A stretch of 64,000 bases of DNA from an uncultured Prochlorococcus sp. (lineage in GTDB: Bacteria > Cyanobacteriota > Cyanobacteriia > PCC-6307 > Cyanobiaceae). The notes under the pieces are model-generated. The model saw only the letters and a program-made list of their open reading frames with translations, was not told the DNA's origin and did not search any database. Numbering within the stretch: position 1 is the first letter of the stretch; each line of letters opens with the position of its first letter. Below are positions 17,765 through 28,405 of the stretch, piece after piece. The translations under genes and the position numbers were made by a program. The DNA lies in NCBI GenBank assembly GCA_902625845.1, contig CACOCT010000001.1, positions 62,001 through 126,000 of the forward strand, read 5' to 3'.

Positions 17765-18196
17765 TTAATTAACGAATCTGCTATATAGCCATCTAATAAA
17801 ATTCCCTAATACTGGCACTGGAGAAAAAGTTGGTCCACAAAAATCAAAATAATCTCTATGTTCTTTTATTTTCCCACTCTCGCCAAAAGTTATTCTTGTT
17901 GTGCCTGGATATATAAATTCCTTATTAAGTATTTTTAACACCAATGTCCACTCAATAAAACCAATATTTTGATTAATTGCAATTGCATGAGTTTCTAGAG
18001 AAACATCTTTGCATCGATTAATAAGATTTTCCTGAGCTTCAATATATGCATCTAATCCATATTTTTCTTGTGTAGGATCTATGAACAAGACATCATCTTC
18101 ATAGAAAGATGCCCATACATCCTTTGATGGTGCTTCCTCTCCAAAAGTTTTATTGAATAATTTTTGCAATTCTTCTTCAGTAATATTCCTATCCAT
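17765..18196 (-). CDS. NTF2/SnoaL-like fold protein
   Basis: The 143-aa protein looks like the NTF2/SnoaL-like superfamily: a helix-rich start, FYEDDVLFIDP, GLDAYIEAQENLINRC and a sheet ending in RITFGESGKIKEHRDYFDF. Members are diverse (isomerases, lyases, non-catalytic binding domains), so no activity is claimed. There is no signal peptide. It lies alone, convergent with the GNAT gene (114-bp gap). Confidence 0.65.
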   Translation of the reverse strand: MDRNITEEELQKLFNKTFGEEAPSKDVWASFYEDDVLFIDPTQEKYGLDAYIEAQENLINRCKDVSLETHAIAINQNIGFIEWTLVLKILNKEFIYPGTTRITFGESGKIKEHRDYFDFCGPTFSPVPVLGNFIRWLYSRFVN

Positions 18197-18404
18197 AATT
18201 GTAAAAATAATGATTGATTAAAACAAATAAACTAATTCAAAATTTTAGCAAAAGTTAGTTTAATAGGTGAATGTTAAGTTAGATATAAATCAAGAAAAAT
18301 CGTCATAATGCTAATGCTCATGAAAAAGAAATAAGTATAAGCAATATAAATAAAACGATAATTTCATAGATAAAGACTTTAATTGTTTTCTTTAAGTTAA
18401 TTTC

Positions 18405-18448
18405 AATGGTAATAGTTAGCTTCGAGACGAAATACTTTAATTACCATT
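18405..18448. other. Long inverted repeat, candidate structured RNA
   Basis: Nine-base perfect arms AATGGTAAT and ATTACCATT flank 26 nt whose centre can pair again (TTCG-AGA-CGAA). The structure lies in the middle of the gene-free spacer before the phoH-like gene. There is no T-run right after it, so it is not an obvious terminator. It could be part of a small RNA or a protein-binding site. Confidence 0.3.
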
Positions 18449-18802
18449 TAAAATCGATCTTATTGAGATTAGATAATCATTCTTAAATTAGATATCATTA
18501 CTACTTTCTTTCAAGGAGTTTTAAAAGATTAATATATGAGGAGAAAGACTTAAATTAAAATTAATTTTTAAAAATTAAATATAAATACTCAAGTATATCT
18601 ACTTATATATTATGAATAAATAAAATTGATAAATAAATGGTTCAGAATAATTACACAGAGAATTTAAACATTAAAATAAAAATTATATATTTTTTTATTA
18701 GATATTAATTTCTTAATATATGTAATATTTAATATCATTACATAATGATAAAAATTATATTTTTATTTAGCAAATTATAAAATCTGAGATATAGTTTTTC
18801 CA

Positions 18803-18817
18803 CCTTAATTAAGGAGG
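18803..18817 (+). promoter_or_regulatory. Strong Shine-Dalgarno inside a palindrome, phoH-like gene
   Basis: AAGGAGG at 18811-18817 lies 7 nt before the ATG at 18825, an unusually complete Shine-Dalgarno for this window. Its first four bases are the right arm of the perfect 12-bp palindrome CCTTAATTAAGG (18803-18814). In the mRNA this could mask the site or be a protein-binding palindrome. Confidence 0.55.
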
Positions 18818-18824
18818 ATTAGTT

Positions 18825-20216
18825 ATGAAAAAAAGAGTCATAGTTTTAGATACCAACGTTCTTTTACATGATCCAGAATCTCCTCTTCATTTTGCTAATG
18901 ATAATGTAGTTATTCCAATTCAAGTTGTTGAAGAGGTCGATAGGTTTAAGCGAGATCCAAGTGAAAAAGGAAGGAATGCTAGAAGAGTTTCTAGATTATT
19001 GGATAGCTTTAGAGAGAGGGGGAATTTATCTGCTGGTGTGAGAATAAATAATAAAGATGTAGGTCAAATAAAAGTTGCTTTCTGTAGAAAAGAAACTACT
19101 GATAGGCTACCTTCTGAGTTAAATGATAATAGTGGAGATAACAAGATTTTAGCTGTCGCTCTTGAACATAAAACTAATAAAGTATTGGCAAATTCTCCAG
19201 ATGTGATTCTCATCTCTAAGGATACTAATTTAAGGATAAAGGCTGATGCAATAGGATTAAAAGCAGCAGACTATAGCAACAACAAAGTTTCTTTAGATAA
19301 TTTAAATAGAGGATTTAGAGAAATTATTTCTGATCAACATGAAATTAATAAAATTCAAAAAGAAGGATTCATCTTTTTAAAAGATATTAAATTCAATTTA
19401 AAGACAAGCTTATATTCTAACGAAGGTGTAATTCTTCGAAATAATCTTAAAGAAAATCATACATATTTATGCAGATATGACCCTGTAGAAAAAAAATTGA
19501 TTTCTTTAAATTGGTTAAGAAGATCTAATTTGGGAAAAATAAAACCAAAAAATTTAGAGCAAAGTTTTGCCTTAGATTTACTTCTTGATCCAGATATTCA
19601 GTTGGTCACTCTTATAGGAAAAGCAGGAACGGGAAAAACTTTATTGGCATTAGCTGTGGGATTAAATCTAGTAGCAGATGAAAATATGTATGAAAGATTA
19701 TTAGTCTCAAGACCTCCAATTTCTTTGGGGAAAGAACTAGGATTTCTTCCCGGCAGTTTAGATGAGAAATTAGCTCCATGGATGAAACCTATTATTGATA
19801 ACTTGGATTATTTAACAGGCTCTAAATTTAATAAAAAAGGTGAAAAAGTCGCACTTAAAGAGAGAGACAATAATGCAAGAAATTCATGGGAAGATCTCAA
19901 AGGTATGGGACTTTTGGAGGTTGAAGCAATTAATTATATTCGCGGGAGGTCAATTTCTCATCAATTTATTCTTATTGATGAGGCTCAAAATTTAACGCCT
20001 TTAGAAGTCAAGACAATTGTTACCAGAGCTGGTGAAGGTACAAAAATTGTTTTCACTGGGGATCCAAATCAAATAGATCATCCTTATCTAGACTCTGATA
20101 GTAATGGTCTTACTTGGTTGGCTAAAAAACTTAAAGGTCAAAAAATAGTTGGCCATATTACCCTGTCACAAGGTGAAAGAAGTGATTTAGCTGAATTAGC
20201 GGCAAATCTCTTGTAA
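18825..20216 (+). CDS. PIN domain and PhoH ATPase fusion protein
   Basis: The 463-aa protein joins an N-terminal PIN-like RNase domain (VLDTNVLLHDP at residues 7-17, with acidic residues continuing to SKDTNLRIKADAIGL) to a C-terminal PhoH-type ATPase. The ATPase has Walker A GKAGTGKTLLALAVG, Walker B FILIDEAQNLTP and TGDPNQID. PIN-PhoH proteins are thought to act as RNA helicase/ribonucleases. A strong ribosome-binding site precedes the ATG. The LOG-family gene follows 37 bp downstream on the same strand. Confidence 0.92.
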   Translation: MKKRVIVLDTNVLLHDPESPLHFANDNVVIPIQVVEEVDRFKRDPSEKGRNARRVSRLLDSFRERGNLSAGVRINNKDVGQIKVAFCRKETTDRLPSELNDNSGDNKILAVALEHKTNKVLANSPDVILISKDTNLRIKADAIGLKAADYSNNKVSLDNLNRGFREIISDQHEINKIQKEGFIFLKDIKFNLKTSLYSNEGVILRNNLKENHTYLCRYDPVEKKLISLNWLRRSNLGKIKPKNLEQSFALDLLLDPDIQLVTLIGKAGTGKTLLALAVGLNLVADENMYERLLVSRPPISLGKELGFLPGSLDEKLAPWMKPIIDNLDYLTGSKFNKKGEKVALKERDNNARNSWEDLKGMGLLEVEAINYIRGRSISHQFILIDEAQNLTPLEVKTIVTRAGEGTKIVFTGDPNQIDHPYLDSDSNGLTWLAKKLKGQKIVGHITLSQGERSDLAELAANLL

Positions 20217-20253
20217 TTACAAACTTAAAACAGTAAAAAAATGGAGAAACTTC

Positions 20254-21138
20254 ATGAAAAAAAAATTAAATTGTGATTTTGCAAAAGAACGAAGTAATGA
20301 GGCTCAAGTCGTAGCTAGTAATTTAGAAGCAATTTTAAAATCTAACTCTTATAAACTTGCGCATGAAGATTTGGAATTACTAAATACTGATGAAATGCGC
20401 GGCGTTCGGATGCTTCTTGAGATAACGAAACCTGAACAAGCAATTGAGAAGGAAAATATTATTTCTACGGTTATTATTTTTGGTGGTGTTCACATATCAG
20501 AGGACATCACTTCAAAGAGAAAATTGGACGAGACTTTAAATCTTCTTGAAAAAGATCCAAAATCAACTTTGTTAAAGCAAAAAGTAGAAAGATACAAGAA
20601 TCTATATTCAATGTCTCACTATTATTCTTCAGCTCGAGAATTATCTAAGTTAATATCAATTGAAACTAAATTAGAACGTCCTCATGCTCATGTGATAGTA
20701 ACTGGTGGTGGACCTGGGATTATGGAAGCTGCTAATAGAGGGGCTTTTGACGCGGGTTGTAAATCTATTGGATTAAATATATCTTTACCGAATGAGCAGC
20801 ATCCAAATTCATTTATTACGCCCGGATTATGTTTTAAGTTTAACTATTTTGCTATGAGAAAATTTCATTTTGTTATGAGATCTGAGGCCGCAGTTTTTTT
20901 CCCTGGTGGATTCGGAACTTTAGATGAATTATTTGAATTATTAACTTTGAGACAAACTGGTATGAAGAAGAATATACCAATTATTTTATTTGGAAGAAAT
21001 TATTGGAACAAAGTAATTAATTTTGAATATCTATGCGATATGGGTTTAATAGAGGAAAAGCATTTATCAATTTTTAAATATGCTGATAGTGCTGATGAGG
21101 CTTGGTCTTTGATAAAGAAGTTTAATGATAGTAATTAA
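20254..21138 (+). CDS. LOG family protein (possible nucleoside 5'-monophosphate phosphoribohydrolase)
   Basis: The 294-aa protein has the LOG-family signature PGGFGTLDE (preceded by MRKFHFVMRSEAAVFF) and GGGPGIMEAANRGA. These form the nucleotide-binding and catalytic pocket of LONELY GUY-type enzymes, which cleave nucleoside monophosphates such as cytokinin ribotides or purine/pyrimidine nucleotides. The N-terminal 100 residues are longer than in minimal LOG proteins. It lies 37 bp after the PIN-PhoH gene. It is the last core gene before the island. Confidence 0.85.
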   Translation: MKKKLNCDFAKERSNEAQVVASNLEAILKSNSYKLAHEDLELLNTDEMRGVRMLLEITKPEQAIEKENIISTVIIFGGVHISEDITSKRKLDETLNLLEKDPKSTLLKQKVERYKNLYSMSHYYSSARELSKLISIETKLERPHAHVIVTGGGPGIMEAANRGAFDAGCKSIGLNISLPNEQHPNSFITPGLCFKFNYFAMRKFHFVMRSEAAVFFPGGFGTLDELFELLTLRQTGMKKNIPIILFGRNYWNKVINFEYLCDMGLIEEKHLSIFKYADSADEAWSLIKKFNDSN

Positions 21139-21180
21139 TTTTAAAGACATCATAATCTTTTGGCTCACGCAAATCACAAC

Positions 21181-21309
21181 TTCTTTGTCCGAATTAGGCC
21201 ACACTTTTTCTCTAAAATTACTGATAGCAAAATAAGTCTGACTTATAGCTTCGATCTTACAGGTGCTTTGGGAGCACTAGGTCGTAGGTTCGAATCCTGT
21301 CGCCCCGAT
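21181..21309 (+). repeat. Island repeat copy 1, leader plus tRNA-Pro 3' half
   Basis: Positions 21261-21309 match the 3' half of a tRNA-Pro(UGG): anticodon arm GGTGC-TTTGGGA-GCACT, variable loop, T arm with TTCGAAT and the acceptor strand CGCCCCG. There is no 5' half upstream, so it is not a tRNA gene. The 80 bp in front (TTCTTTGTCCGAATTAG onward) are a diverged copy of 22021-22105 before copy 2. The native terminator seen after copies 2 and 4 is missing. I read it as the left attachment site (attL) of mini-element 1. Confidence 0.85.
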
Positions 21310-21343
21310 CAGTTATAGCAATAAGTCTCAGCTAATAATATAT

Positions 21344-21380
21344 TTCCCTCAAAAATACCTTCCCTCAAAATTCCCTCAAA
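21344..21380 (+). repeat. Three TTCCCTCAAA repeats (candidate integrase arm sites, left)
   Basis: Perfect decamers start at 21344, 21360 and 21371, i.e. 16 and 11 bp apart. They lie 35 bp inside tRNA-Pro copy 1. The near one-turn spacing and the matching pair at the other end of the element suggest binding sites for a recombinase or accessory protein. Confidence 0.7.
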
Positions 21381-21518
21381 TGGGTTATTGATATCCCAAG
21401 AAGATAAATGTATCTTTTAAATATTAAGGGAATATTTGAGTTTTAAAAACTAAGAACTTGTGGTCAAGTTACTTAATTAAAAATTCAATTTATTTAAAAT
21501 AAGCATGAATTTATTGAT

Positions 21519-21956
21519 TTGATTTTTAATTTTTCAAAATTCTTATTCTTCGTCAAAGCACTATTAATATTCATTTTTTGTGAGTTGGTATTTTCTCAAG
21601 AAATAAAAGCATCTGAAAAAATATTGAATGAAAGCAAGGTTGATGTAGATTCATTTACAAGTTATGCACGTATAAGTCATACAGATAACTTTATTCTTGT
21701 AGATAAAAATGGAAAAGTATATAAGTCTTGCTTAACTAGAAACCCAGAAGGATGTCCCGATCCATATTTATTCTATGGTTATATAAATACTCCGATATCT
21801 GAAGAAGTGGTTCAGTTAAAAAAGGACGGATCTTATTGGTGTAAGACTTCTGTTATTTTGTCACTTCTTGAAGAAAATCATAATTGGAATGAACACAATC
21901 ATCGATATCATTTTTGGTGCGATAGAAATGGATGGATTAAAAGCAAGTCTCCATAA
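21519..21956 (+). CDS. Exported hypothetical protein, sole cargo of mini-element 1
   Basis: I do not recognise this 145-aa protein. It starts at TTG 21519 (an ATG at 21505 is out of frame and closes at once). A strong signal peptide covers residues 1-26 (FLFFVKALLIFIFCELVFS). The mature part is rich in aromatic and His residues and has four Cys (KSCLTRNPEGCPDPY, DGSYWCKTS, FWCDRNGW), suggesting disulfides in a periplasmic or surface protein. It is the only gene between tRNA-Pro copies 1 and 2. Confidence 0.6.
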   Translation: MIFNFSKFLFFVKALLIFIFCELVFSQEIKASEKILNESKVDVDSFTSYARISHTDNFILVDKNGKVYKSCLTRNPEGCPDPYLFYGYINTPISEEVVQLKKDGSYWCKTSVILSLLEENHNWNEHNHRYHFWCDRNGWIKSKSP

Positions 21957-21996
21957 AAAATACTAATCACGTAATTTTAATTAATACTTTTAAAAG

Positions 21997-22017
21997 TTCC
22001 CTCATATTTCCCTCAAA
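21997..22017 (+). repeat. Two TTCCCTCA repeats (candidate integrase arm sites, right)
   Basis: TTCCCTCATA at 21997 and TTCCCTCAAA at 22008 are 11 bp apart and in the same orientation as the three copies at 21344-21380. They close off mini-element 1 about 90 bp before tRNA-Pro copy 2. Confidence 0.65.
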
Positions 22018-22020
22018 TTA

Positions 22021-22200
22021 TTCTTTCTTAGTCCGAACTAGTCCACATTCTAAACTTAAAAAGTATTGGTATAGCTATAAGTCTCAATTATAGCCTTATT
22101 TTTGCGGGTTCTTTGGGAGCACTAGGTCGCAGATTCTAATCCTGTCGCCCCGACTCATAAAAACCAAGTCATCCTAGCGAGTCTCCCAACTCGCTTATTT
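22021..22200 (+). repeat. Island repeat copy 2, tRNA-Pro 3' half plus native terminator
   Basis: Positions 22106-22154 are a tRNA-Pro 3' half with a damaged anticodon stem and T loop (TTCTAAT for TTCGAAT) but an intact CGCCCCG end. Upstream 22021-22105 resembles 21181-21260. Downstream, 22159-22200 matches the region after copy 4, including the terminator hairpin. Retention of the native downstream sequence marks it as the right end (attR) of mini-element 1; it also serves as left boundary of mini-element 2. Confidence 0.85.
22177..22200 (+). terminator. Terminator copy downstream of tRNA-Pro fragment 2
   Basis: The stem GCGAGT/ACTCGC (22177-22182 with 22189-22194) has a 6-nt loop and is followed by a T-rich tract. 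The same hairpin follows tRNA fragment 4, so it is most likely the original terminator of the tRNA-Pro gene. Confidence 0.7.
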
Positions 22201-22239
22201 TATTTCTCATTTGTCTTAAAATCTCTACGAGCGAGGAAT

Positions 22240-22279
22240 GGGCAAGGGTTTGTATAGCTTTGGATAACTTTGGAGGGTG
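22240..22279 (+). repeat. Phased TTTG repeats, left end of mini-element 2
   Basis: TTTG recurs at 22249, 22259 and 22269, exactly 10 bp apart, within a 40-bp block that aligns with 22712-22751 on the other side of the lipoprotein gene (shared GG-rich start, TTTGTATA, TGGATA). Candidate protein-binding arm sites of mini-element 2. Confidence 0.55.
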
Positions 22280-22339
22280 TATCGCCCGCTATTTCTGTGG
22301 AAAAGAATTAAAGATTTATTGTTAAGAAAATTAATTCTA

Positions 22340-22600
22340 TTAGTATTTGAAATTTCTTTTTACTAGACCTTCCTTTTTTCTAGTGTTTTGAAGACCCAAA
22401 ATTTGTGACGTTTTTTCCTCTTCTATGCACCACCTTCTATTTATTGTCCAAGTATTTTGTCTTATAATTTGAATACGATCTTCTTCTGTCCATCTTTCAC
22501 AAGCTTGTTTTGCTTGTAAATATGAATTGTATTTTTTACCATTTACACAAGAAGAAACAAGAAATGAAGTAAAAAAAAGTATAAAGATTACTTTCTTCAT
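22340..22600 (-). CDS. Small lipoprotein, sole cargo of mini-element 2
   Basis: The 86-aa product has a clear lipoprotein signal peptide with lipobox LVSSC (Cys18 would carry the lipid), so it should sit on a membrane surface. The rest is short, charged and has two further Cys (QACERW and RRWCIEE) that could pair. I do not recognise a domain. It is the only gene in mini-element 2. An inverted repeat TATCCCTA/TAGGGATA (22633-22659) lies about 35 bp upstream of the start and may be regulatory. Confidence 0.6.
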   Translation of the reverse strand: MKKVIFILFFTSFLVSSCVNGKKYNSYLQAKQACERWTEEDRIQIIRQNTWTINRRWCIEEEKTSQILGLQNTRKKEGLVKRNFKY

Positions 22601-22632
22601 TTTTTATAAGAAAAATAAATTAATGGTCCGCC

Positions 22633-22659
22633 TATCCCTATAGGATACCACTAGGGATA
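22633..22659. promoter_or_regulatory. Inverted repeat upstream of the 86-aa lipoprotein
   Basis: TATCCCTA and TAGGGATA form an 8-bp perfect inverted repeat with an 11-nt centre, 33 bp upstream of the lipoprotein ATG. It could be an operator. No regulator can be named. Confidence 0.3.
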
Positions 22660-22711
22660 AATTGAGATAATCTAGTTTCTTAGCTTCATCAGATATTACA
22701 AGGGCGACAAA

Positions 22712-22766
22712 CGGACGAGGATTTGTATATTTATGGATATTTTTGTATGTCTTTGACATATTTTTG
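22712..22766 (+). repeat. Phased TTTG repeats, right end of mini-element 2
   Basis: TTTG occurs at 22722, 22742, 22752 and 22763, with a TATG at 22732, giving a run of near 10-bp phased motifs. The first 40 bp align with the block at 22240-22279. It lies about 85 bp before tRNA-Pro copy 3, mirroring the arm repeats of mini-element 1. Confidence 0.5.
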
Positions 22767-22848
22767 AGACTCACAACTCCTCAGATATTGCAACTAACTT
22801 GCCATAGCCAAACTTGTTTATTTGGGTTACTGTCTCAAATTGAAAGTC

Positions 22849-22895
22849 GGGTGCTTTGGGAGTACTTGGCCGAAGGTTAGAATCCTGTAGCCATG
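22849..22895 (+). repeat. Island repeat copy 3, degenerate tRNA-Pro 3' half
   Basis: GGTGCTTTGGGAG is intact, but the rest has drifted (AGTACTTGGCCGAAGG, then TTAGAATCCTGTAGCC). It is recognisable only by alignment to the other three copies. It is not followed by the native terminator. It forms the right edge of mini-element 2. Confidence 0.7.
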
Positions 22896-23140
22896 AGCAT
22901 TTAATAGAGAAATCCAATCTTTTGCTTTTTTATTTCTAAAGTGTCTCAGGCTCAGAAAGGAAGGTGTAAGAGGAAATGAAATGGAGTACCTTGATCTAAA
23001 GTGCTTACTTAACGAGATAGTTAATTGATAGAGATAAATAAAATTTCTTTTTCTTTTTTGATAATCTCTTATACCCAATAAAAGAACACAATATTAATTA
23101 AAGAAATAACGATAGAGTTAAGAGCGAAGAGGTAACTAAA

Positions 23141-27296: not shown

Positions 27297-27391
27297 GGTG
27301 CTTTGGGAGCACTAGGTCGCAGGTTCGAATCCTGTCGCCCAGACTTTTCAAAACCAAGTGATACCTGCGAGTTGCCCAAACTCGCTTTTTT
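27297..27391 (+). repeat. Island repeat copy 4, tRNA-Pro 3' half plus native terminator
   Basis: 27297-27344 is the best preserved anticodon and T arm (GCACTAGGTCGCAGG then TTCGAATCCTGTCG). The acceptor end reads CGCCCAGAC instead of CGCCCCGAC. The following 47 bp match those after copy 2 and include the terminator hairpin. There is no 5' half and so no tRNA gene. Its left neighbour copy 3 and this copy bound a 4.4-kb block holding the L36 paralogue and small genes. Confidence 0.85.
27367..27391 (+). terminator. Terminator copy downstream of tRNA-Pro fragment 4
   Basis: A 7-bp stem GCGAGTT/AACTCGC (27367-27373 with 27379-27385), 5-nt loop GCCCA and a T6 run make a textbook intrinsic terminator, presumably copied from the tRNA-Pro gene. 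Confidence 0.8.
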
Positions 27392-28371: not shown

Positions 28372-28405
28372 TAAAAAAACCCTGTCAGAGAAAAGGTTTT
28401 AAGAG

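Follow-up and report, generated by a model that had tools for sequence, protein, structure and literature searches.

A Single-Gene, Integrase-Less Unit Between tRNA-Pro Fragments of Prochlorococcus: A Probable Passenger of Arm-Matched Integrases

Introduction

Strain-to-strain variation in Prochlorococcus lies mostly in genomic islands. The tycheposons, which Hackl et al. reportedly described from this genus in 2023, are said to integrate at tRNA genes within these islands and to carry a tyrosine recombinase together with cargo and satellite genes; seven target tRNAs have reportedly been published. In the available text of one account, tycheposons measure 4–200 kb and carry a tyrosine recombinase (PMC10872708). 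CIMEs have lost their integration genes and kept attL and attR (PMC5704250). The additive flexible genomic islands of Alteromonas and Methylophilaceae are presented, in the available portions of two sources, as strings of cassettes beside a tRNA whose 3′ end is repeated (PMC4119200, PMC10872708). Tycheposons, CIMEs and additive islands are the known kinds of element closest to the unit described here, mini-element 1.

Like a tycheposon, mini-element 1 has the 3′ part of a tRNA gene (tRNA-Pro) as its core and tRNA fragments at its ends. It differs in encoding no tyrosine recombinase and in its size, 845 bp against 4–200 kb. An element of Prochlorococcus marinus MIT 9401 with the same arms, hereafter the candidate helper, does encode a tyrosine recombinase; with a length of 7.2 kb, a VapE-like helicase, a TerS-like protein and an integrase at one end, it resembles a small tycheposon, whereas mini-element 1 itself is not one by the published description. 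The operational features of CIMEs, absent integration genes and retained att sites, are both found in mini-element 1, and tandem arrays built by site-specific accretion at a tRNA 3′ end are a further likeness to CIMEs, ICEs and IMEs. CIMEs, however, are large relics mobilised together with a neighbour, whereas the present units are very small, have complete double-arm attP-type ends and unrelated cargo, and recur in many genomes. The additive islands differ in that the available portions of their sources mention neither arm repeats nor helper pairing nor single-gene cassettes this small. In the literature searched, which did not include the original tycheposon paper, no description was found of arm-matched integrase-less cassettes of this size or of the matching of integrase-bearing with integrase-less units by arm sequence.

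Mini-element 1 and its array

The window, that is, the whole 64,000-nucleotide stretch of DNA analysed, belongs to a genome of 1.18 Mb that is 66% complete (G000); same-genus genomes are those of Prochlorococcus. Mini-element 1 spans 845 bp core to core and holds a single gene between two tRNA-Pro 3′ fragments with a 46-bp core (Table 1). These fragments start with TTTGGGAGC at 21267 and 22112, a degenerate copy follows at 22855, and a further copy lies at 27302. Because an ARAGORN run on the window called neither copy 1 nor copy 2 a tRNA, both are 3′ fragments; the core of copy 2 has 2 mismatches. The cargo gene, the only open reading frame of note, has a TTG start and encodes a protein with a hydrophobic N-terminus, for which searches returned no recombinase, Pfam or PHROGs match; relatives, at 28–29% identity, were found only in G086 and on contig C33 of the window's own genome. 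The preliminary description of this locus, with phased repeats at spacings of 16, 11 and 11 bp around one exported-protein gene and no integrase, proved accurate, every motif lying at its given position.

Table 1. Features of the tRNA-Pro array around mini-element 1, and viral-collection contigs with an attP-like arrangement
Feature	Position	Strand	Remarks
Upstream phoH-LOG element	18248..21262	+	right arm CTCACGCAAA at 21164-21173; left breakpoint within left arm
tRNA-Pro 3′ fragment copy 1, att core GTGCTTTGGGAGCACTAGGTCG...GCCCCGA	21263..21308	+	attL-like left end of mini-element 1
Left-end spacer GATCAGTTATAGCAATAAGTCTCAGCTAATAATATA of mini-element 1	21309..21343	+	near-identical in the MIT 9401 candidate helper and other cassettes
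Left arm repeats TTCCCTCAAA x3, mini-element 1	21344..21380 (21344, 21360, 21371; steps 16, 11)	+	
Cargo gene, 145-aa putative exported protein	21519..21956	+	without Pfam or PHROGs match
Right arm repeats TTCCCTCA(T)/TTCCCTCAAA x2, mini-element 1	21997..22017 (21997, 22008; 11 bp apart)	+	
Right-end accessory region: AGTCCGAACTAG then TATAGCTATAAGTCTCAATTATAGCC	22030..22107	+	common to the MIT 9401 candidate helper and the C11 integrase element
tRNA-Pro 3′ fragment copy 2	22108..22153	+	shared by mini-element 1 (right end) and the following element (left end)
Element after mini-element 1, decayed, ~0.74 kb core to core	22154..22850	+	terminator-type left end
Degenerate tRNA-Pro fragment copy 3	22851..22896	+	7 mismatches / 39 bp
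tRNA-Pro fragment copy 4	27298..27343	+	then terminator-type left end, AGCCGACAAAT/TACCGACAA repeats
attP-like IMG/VR contigs	L338-L340, L343-L345, L347, L348, L350-L355		arm words TGTAATCTAG, GCGCACAT, CTACACAAA, others

A further argument, that copy 2 keeps the native tRNA terminator and therefore marks the chromosomal side, was retained only in part. Copy 2 is indeed followed by terminator-type sequence; however, that terminator also serves as the regular left end of a different cassette class and starts many cassettes, so it does not mark the chromosomal side by itself, and its use as proof was dropped. Since copy 2 is followed by GGGCGAGG-like repeats at 22229–22249, it closes mini-element 1 on the right and opens the next element on the left. 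That next element has GGGCGAGG-like arms at ~22229–22249 and ~22692–22712 and one minus-strand open reading frame at 22340–22600.

The array belongs to a segment of ~10.2 kb bounded by a gene that ends at 18196 and a tRNA-Gly at 28405; in G009, G012 and G019 these two neighbours are only ~60–80 bp apart. It is displaced, adjoining tRNA-Gly away from the intact tRNA-Pro. The cause could be rearrangement, or else an artefact or chimera of an assembly that is partial and possibly derived from a single cell. Given this position, the copy of mini-element 1 in the window may be inactive. The upstream phoH-LOG element is 91.7% identical to L180 11232–14311, and a complete version with CTCACGCAAA arms at both ends occurs in G023. 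A phoH gene and a LOG-family gene share a CTCACGCAAA-armed cassette in the window and in G023 (window 18248–21308; L180 11123–14311; G023:C1:1373856). At another place G023 retains a broken remnant of LOG, which looks as though housekeeping genes had relocated into the array.

Other small genes of these arrays show recurring features. Those on the minus strand often share the start ATGAAACGCTTACTACT (MKRLL...), a common signal-peptide start (L009 300–7150; window 24440 and 27560), near which TTGACAG-TGATCTAAATTAGAGGG recurs. Elsewhere in the window's genome (L015 3340–3790), a TerS-like gene ends at a tRNA-Pro fragment, with TTAGTGCGAAA repeats 12–13 bp apart upstream.

Arm repeats across the genus

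The preliminary description named two findings that would count against it, a random scatter of the repeats and their absence from every integrase-bearing element. The window's genome has 13 copies of TTCCCTCAAA vs 2 of the reversed pattern, and TTCCCTCAN{2,9}TTCCCTCAAA, which captures phased TTCCCTCA pairs, occurs in 40 of 266 same-genus genomes with steps of always 11 bp or 15/16 bp; the reversed pattern gave no match in the same 266. The repeats are therefore not random, and clusters beside tRNA-Pro, anticipated for other genomes, do exist. Scattered TTCCCTCAAA copies elsewhere in the window's genome (contigs C2, C3, C4 and C12, and C1 at 11368), having neither core nor phasing, were put down to chance. 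Among the matches listed in a GTDB scan, those with the core or the left-end motif were all Prochlorococcus records.

The geometry of these loci is nearly constant. Fragments of tRNA-Pro form tandem arrays with units of 0.4–7 kb between them; at nearly every locus the left arms lie at +77/+93/+104 from TTTGGGAGC and the second right arm ~104 bp ahead of the next core. Across 258 distinct core flanks, the shared core is exactly 46 bp with sharp edges, the block −4..+41 being 86–100% conserved vs ~50% outside. Among ends whose interiors are unrelated (22 left, 17 right), the arms carry 1.88–1.89 bits per base vs 0.3–0.5 just inside, and over these 39 cassette ends conservation stops at the outermost arm base. 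With arms near 1.9 bits and an interior at 0.3–0.4, the arms appear to be the outer functional limits of the ends, within which cargo is free to vary.

An integrase-bearing element with the same ends

The second finding that would have counted against the preliminary description did not arise either, since the TTCCCTCAAA repeats do lie beside a tyrosine recombinase gene. In MIT 9401 (G016, NZ_JNAR01000015.1), the candidate helper (contig C15, 18845 to 26062) has three TTCCCTCAAA arms on the left and two on the right, where the start of a 412-aa lambda-type integrase gene abuts them. Both of its ends can be aligned to the ends of mini-element 1; the cargo of mini-element 1 is unrelated to the genes of the candidate helper. 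The helicase matches PF05272 (2e-60), and a small protein without a Pfam match is read here as TerS-like. A further unit of this array, 1,247 bp long, has the same ends as the candidate helper and no integrase.

The predicted structure of the MIT 9401 integrase (mean pLDDT 82) aligns over residues 5–409 with full-length lambda Int, including the arm-binding domain (1z1g, Z 12.9), in a model whose pTM is only 0.49. Integrase A2 has invariant R246, K271, R355, H356, H378 and Y387. A Pfam FAS1-like match to the MIT 9401 integrase was judged to be chance, and no relative of this integrase was found in the phage collection.

The window's genome contains a second integrase-less TTCCCTCAAA unit, carrying a DnaJ-domain gene (PF00226), on contig C11 (L009). 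It directly adjoins an element whose integrase is 65% identical to that of MIT 9401 and whose GCACCCAAA arms occupy the same positions. This sister was the only related find: the 66% complete genome yielded no TTCCCTCAAA-type integrase. A matching TTCCCTCAAA-arm integrase was found in just 1 of 266 genomes, which makes the co-occurrence of helper and cassette rare in this sample.

Signs of movement

Arrays in complete genomes begin with the intact tRNA-Pro, behind which the fragments are lined up, as insertion into the tRNA 3′ end would predict. A TTCCCTCAAA unit begins directly after an intact tRNA-Pro in G097, and such a unit lies directly at one in L074. In the close relative G023, the phoH-LOG unit, which precedes mini-element 1 in the window, is followed directly by a core and terminator-type sequence, and mini-element 1 is absent from that same junction. 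Integrase-less cassettes also recur in divergent surroundings: G023 and G022, with chromosomal flanks that agree at only ~65–78%, share one at 96.2% identity over 1,848 bp, and a second, its neighbours differing, matches at 99% over 2,021 bp.

Of 20 IMG/VR contigs with the exact core, 14 repeat a single arm word to the left and right of one core, and most of these junctions adjoin a related integrase. To judge from its layout, this is the attP arrangement of an unintegrated element, with arm words other than TTCCCTCAAA. For the TTCCCTCAAA unit, no excision product, circle or de novo insertion was seen among these data, the attP-like contigs carrying other words; the conserved left end had no match in viral contigs, and phage-record matches to window DNA were to tRNA-Pro genes only. 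Viral contigs with TTCCCTCA pairs were considered as evidence for packaging and set aside because they have neither tRNA core nor related integrase; they are mainly iteron-like repeats of unrelated marine phages. Marine phage contigs L319–L321, L323, L326–L328, L330 and L332–L335 carry CTTCCCTCAAACTTCCCTCAAACTTCCCT iterons, unrelated to the cassettes, between two genes, one often of ~630 aa; these iterons are possibly a replication origin.

A family of arm sequences on one core

The TTCCCTCAAA units belong to a larger family. Some 65 integrases of this family adjoin the tRNA-Pro core, and their arms, where readable, differ from integrase to integrase; sorted by hand, ~30 arm words share this single core. 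Among 163 distinct inter-core units, phased repeats occupy 123 left and 117 right zones, vs 16 of 142 interior controls, and in 97 units a word of 10 nt or more is common to the left and right zones (permutation mean 10.9, maximum 16). An integrase was found in only 6 of the 163 closed units, a ratio that is a lower bound on integrase carriers because many integrase loci were taken with short flanks. None of the 21 closed units with TTCCCTCA at both ends has one. Variability among the 11 integrases whose arms could be aligned is greatest in the N-terminal 60 residues, and N-terminal similarity tracks arm similarity once that of the catalytic domain is corrected for (partial Mantel r = −0.53, p = 4e-4, n = 11, some of them close relatives).

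The pattern is not confined to tRNA-Pro: an integrase-less unit of the window's genome (L358 938–2780, contig C33) lies at tRNA-Ser(GCT), holds the relative of the cargo protein at 28% identity, and carries AGGGGATATTTT repeats close to its two ends as well as a short piece of tRNA 3′ sequence.

Beyond tRNA-associated islands, the units resemble integron cassettes in being small, mostly single-gene, integrase-less and tandem, and probably in being moved by an integrase supplied elsewhere. They differ in having neither an attC hairpin nor IntI, the nearby integrases being lambda-like, and in using a double-stranded tRNA core, phased direct arm sites and a different integrase per arm sequence. 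Their likeness to lambda Int and attP lies in a core with arm-type sites on both sides, as in the 14 viral-collection contigs, albeit with other arm sequences, and in the arm-binding, core-binding and catalytic domains spanned by the MIT 9401 integrase model. Unlike lambda, one dominant core is combined here with ~30 arm sequences, and arms occur on elements without an integrase.

Discussion

The reading favoured here, with a probability of roughly three quarters, is that mini-element 1 is a non-autonomous integrative cassette moved by the integrase of an element with the same arms. It would consist of the 46-bp tRNA-Pro core, arm-type sites on both sides, an accessory right end and one cargo gene, and would thus be a minimal passenger mobilised in trans by another element's enzyme. 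The source of that enzyme would be a larger satellite-like element with a lambda-type tyrosine recombinase, such as the one in MIT 9401. Its N-terminal domain would bind the TTCCCTCAAA arms, and its core-binding and catalytic domains would recombine the tRNA-Pro core; the cassette could then leave as a small circle, or enter the tRNA-Pro 3′ end or whichever fragment is already resident. Repeated integration would yield tandem arrays, and the arm sequence would decide which integrase moves which cassette. We infer integrase–arm binding, action in trans, the circular intermediate and any present-day activity of the window copy.

Such a unit could also be a decayed, CIME-like remnant of a larger tRNA-Pro element in which deletion removed the integrase along with other genes and left the att ends passive. 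The window array does hold decayed units, with the degenerate copy 3 and broken arms; CIMEs by definition have lost integration genes and kept attL and attR (PMC5704250); and the rarity of the same-arm integrase (1/266) fits as well. This origin nonetheless seems unlikely to us, as most integrase-less TTCCCTCA units keep intact arms and phasing despite unrelated cargo, near-identical integrase-less cassettes occur in divergent genomes, and the cargo of mini-element 1 has no counterpart among the genes of the candidate helper. That arms and phasing persist also bears on a rather less probable alternative, in which RecA-dependent homologous recombination between the 46-bp repeats, or transfer of whole segments, is the main shuffler and the arms are relics. 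Arrays offer many near-identical cores, and both the displacement of the array in the window and the existence of inverted arrays show that rearrangement occurs; functionless arms, however, would not be expected to hold ~1.9 bits while the cargo side falls to background, or to match left to right within elements.

The repeats might be regulatory instead of recombinase sites, acting as promoters or operators of the cargo or in tRNA readthrough. In integrase-bearing elements the right arms abut the integrase start codon and so may serve there as operators too. As a general account this is highly improbable, since the repeats stand at both unit ends whatever the cargo, at fixed distance from the core and on either side of attP-like junctions, and left and right vary together.

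Extended to the family, trans-mobilisation by arm-matched integrases leads to a broader proposal, to which we give even odds: a Prochlorococcus cassette economy on tRNA-Pro, in which hundreds of integrase-less cassettes, mostly of 0.6–4 kb, would share one core and ~30 arm codes, each code served by its own satellite integrase whose N-terminal domain would read it, and in which cassettes would hitchhike on phage satellites. If cassettes are moved in trans in this way, one integrase would serve a whole cassette pool, and the compatibility of cassette and helper would be readable from DNA. The ten or so natural integrase–arm pairs offer a ready data set on site recognition by the arm domains of recombinases. 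The cassette economy, if true, would amount to integron-like gene exchange with arm-coded compatibility groups, a tyrosine-recombinase counterpart of MITEs, and it touches the question of how single genes enter the islands of Prochlorococcus.
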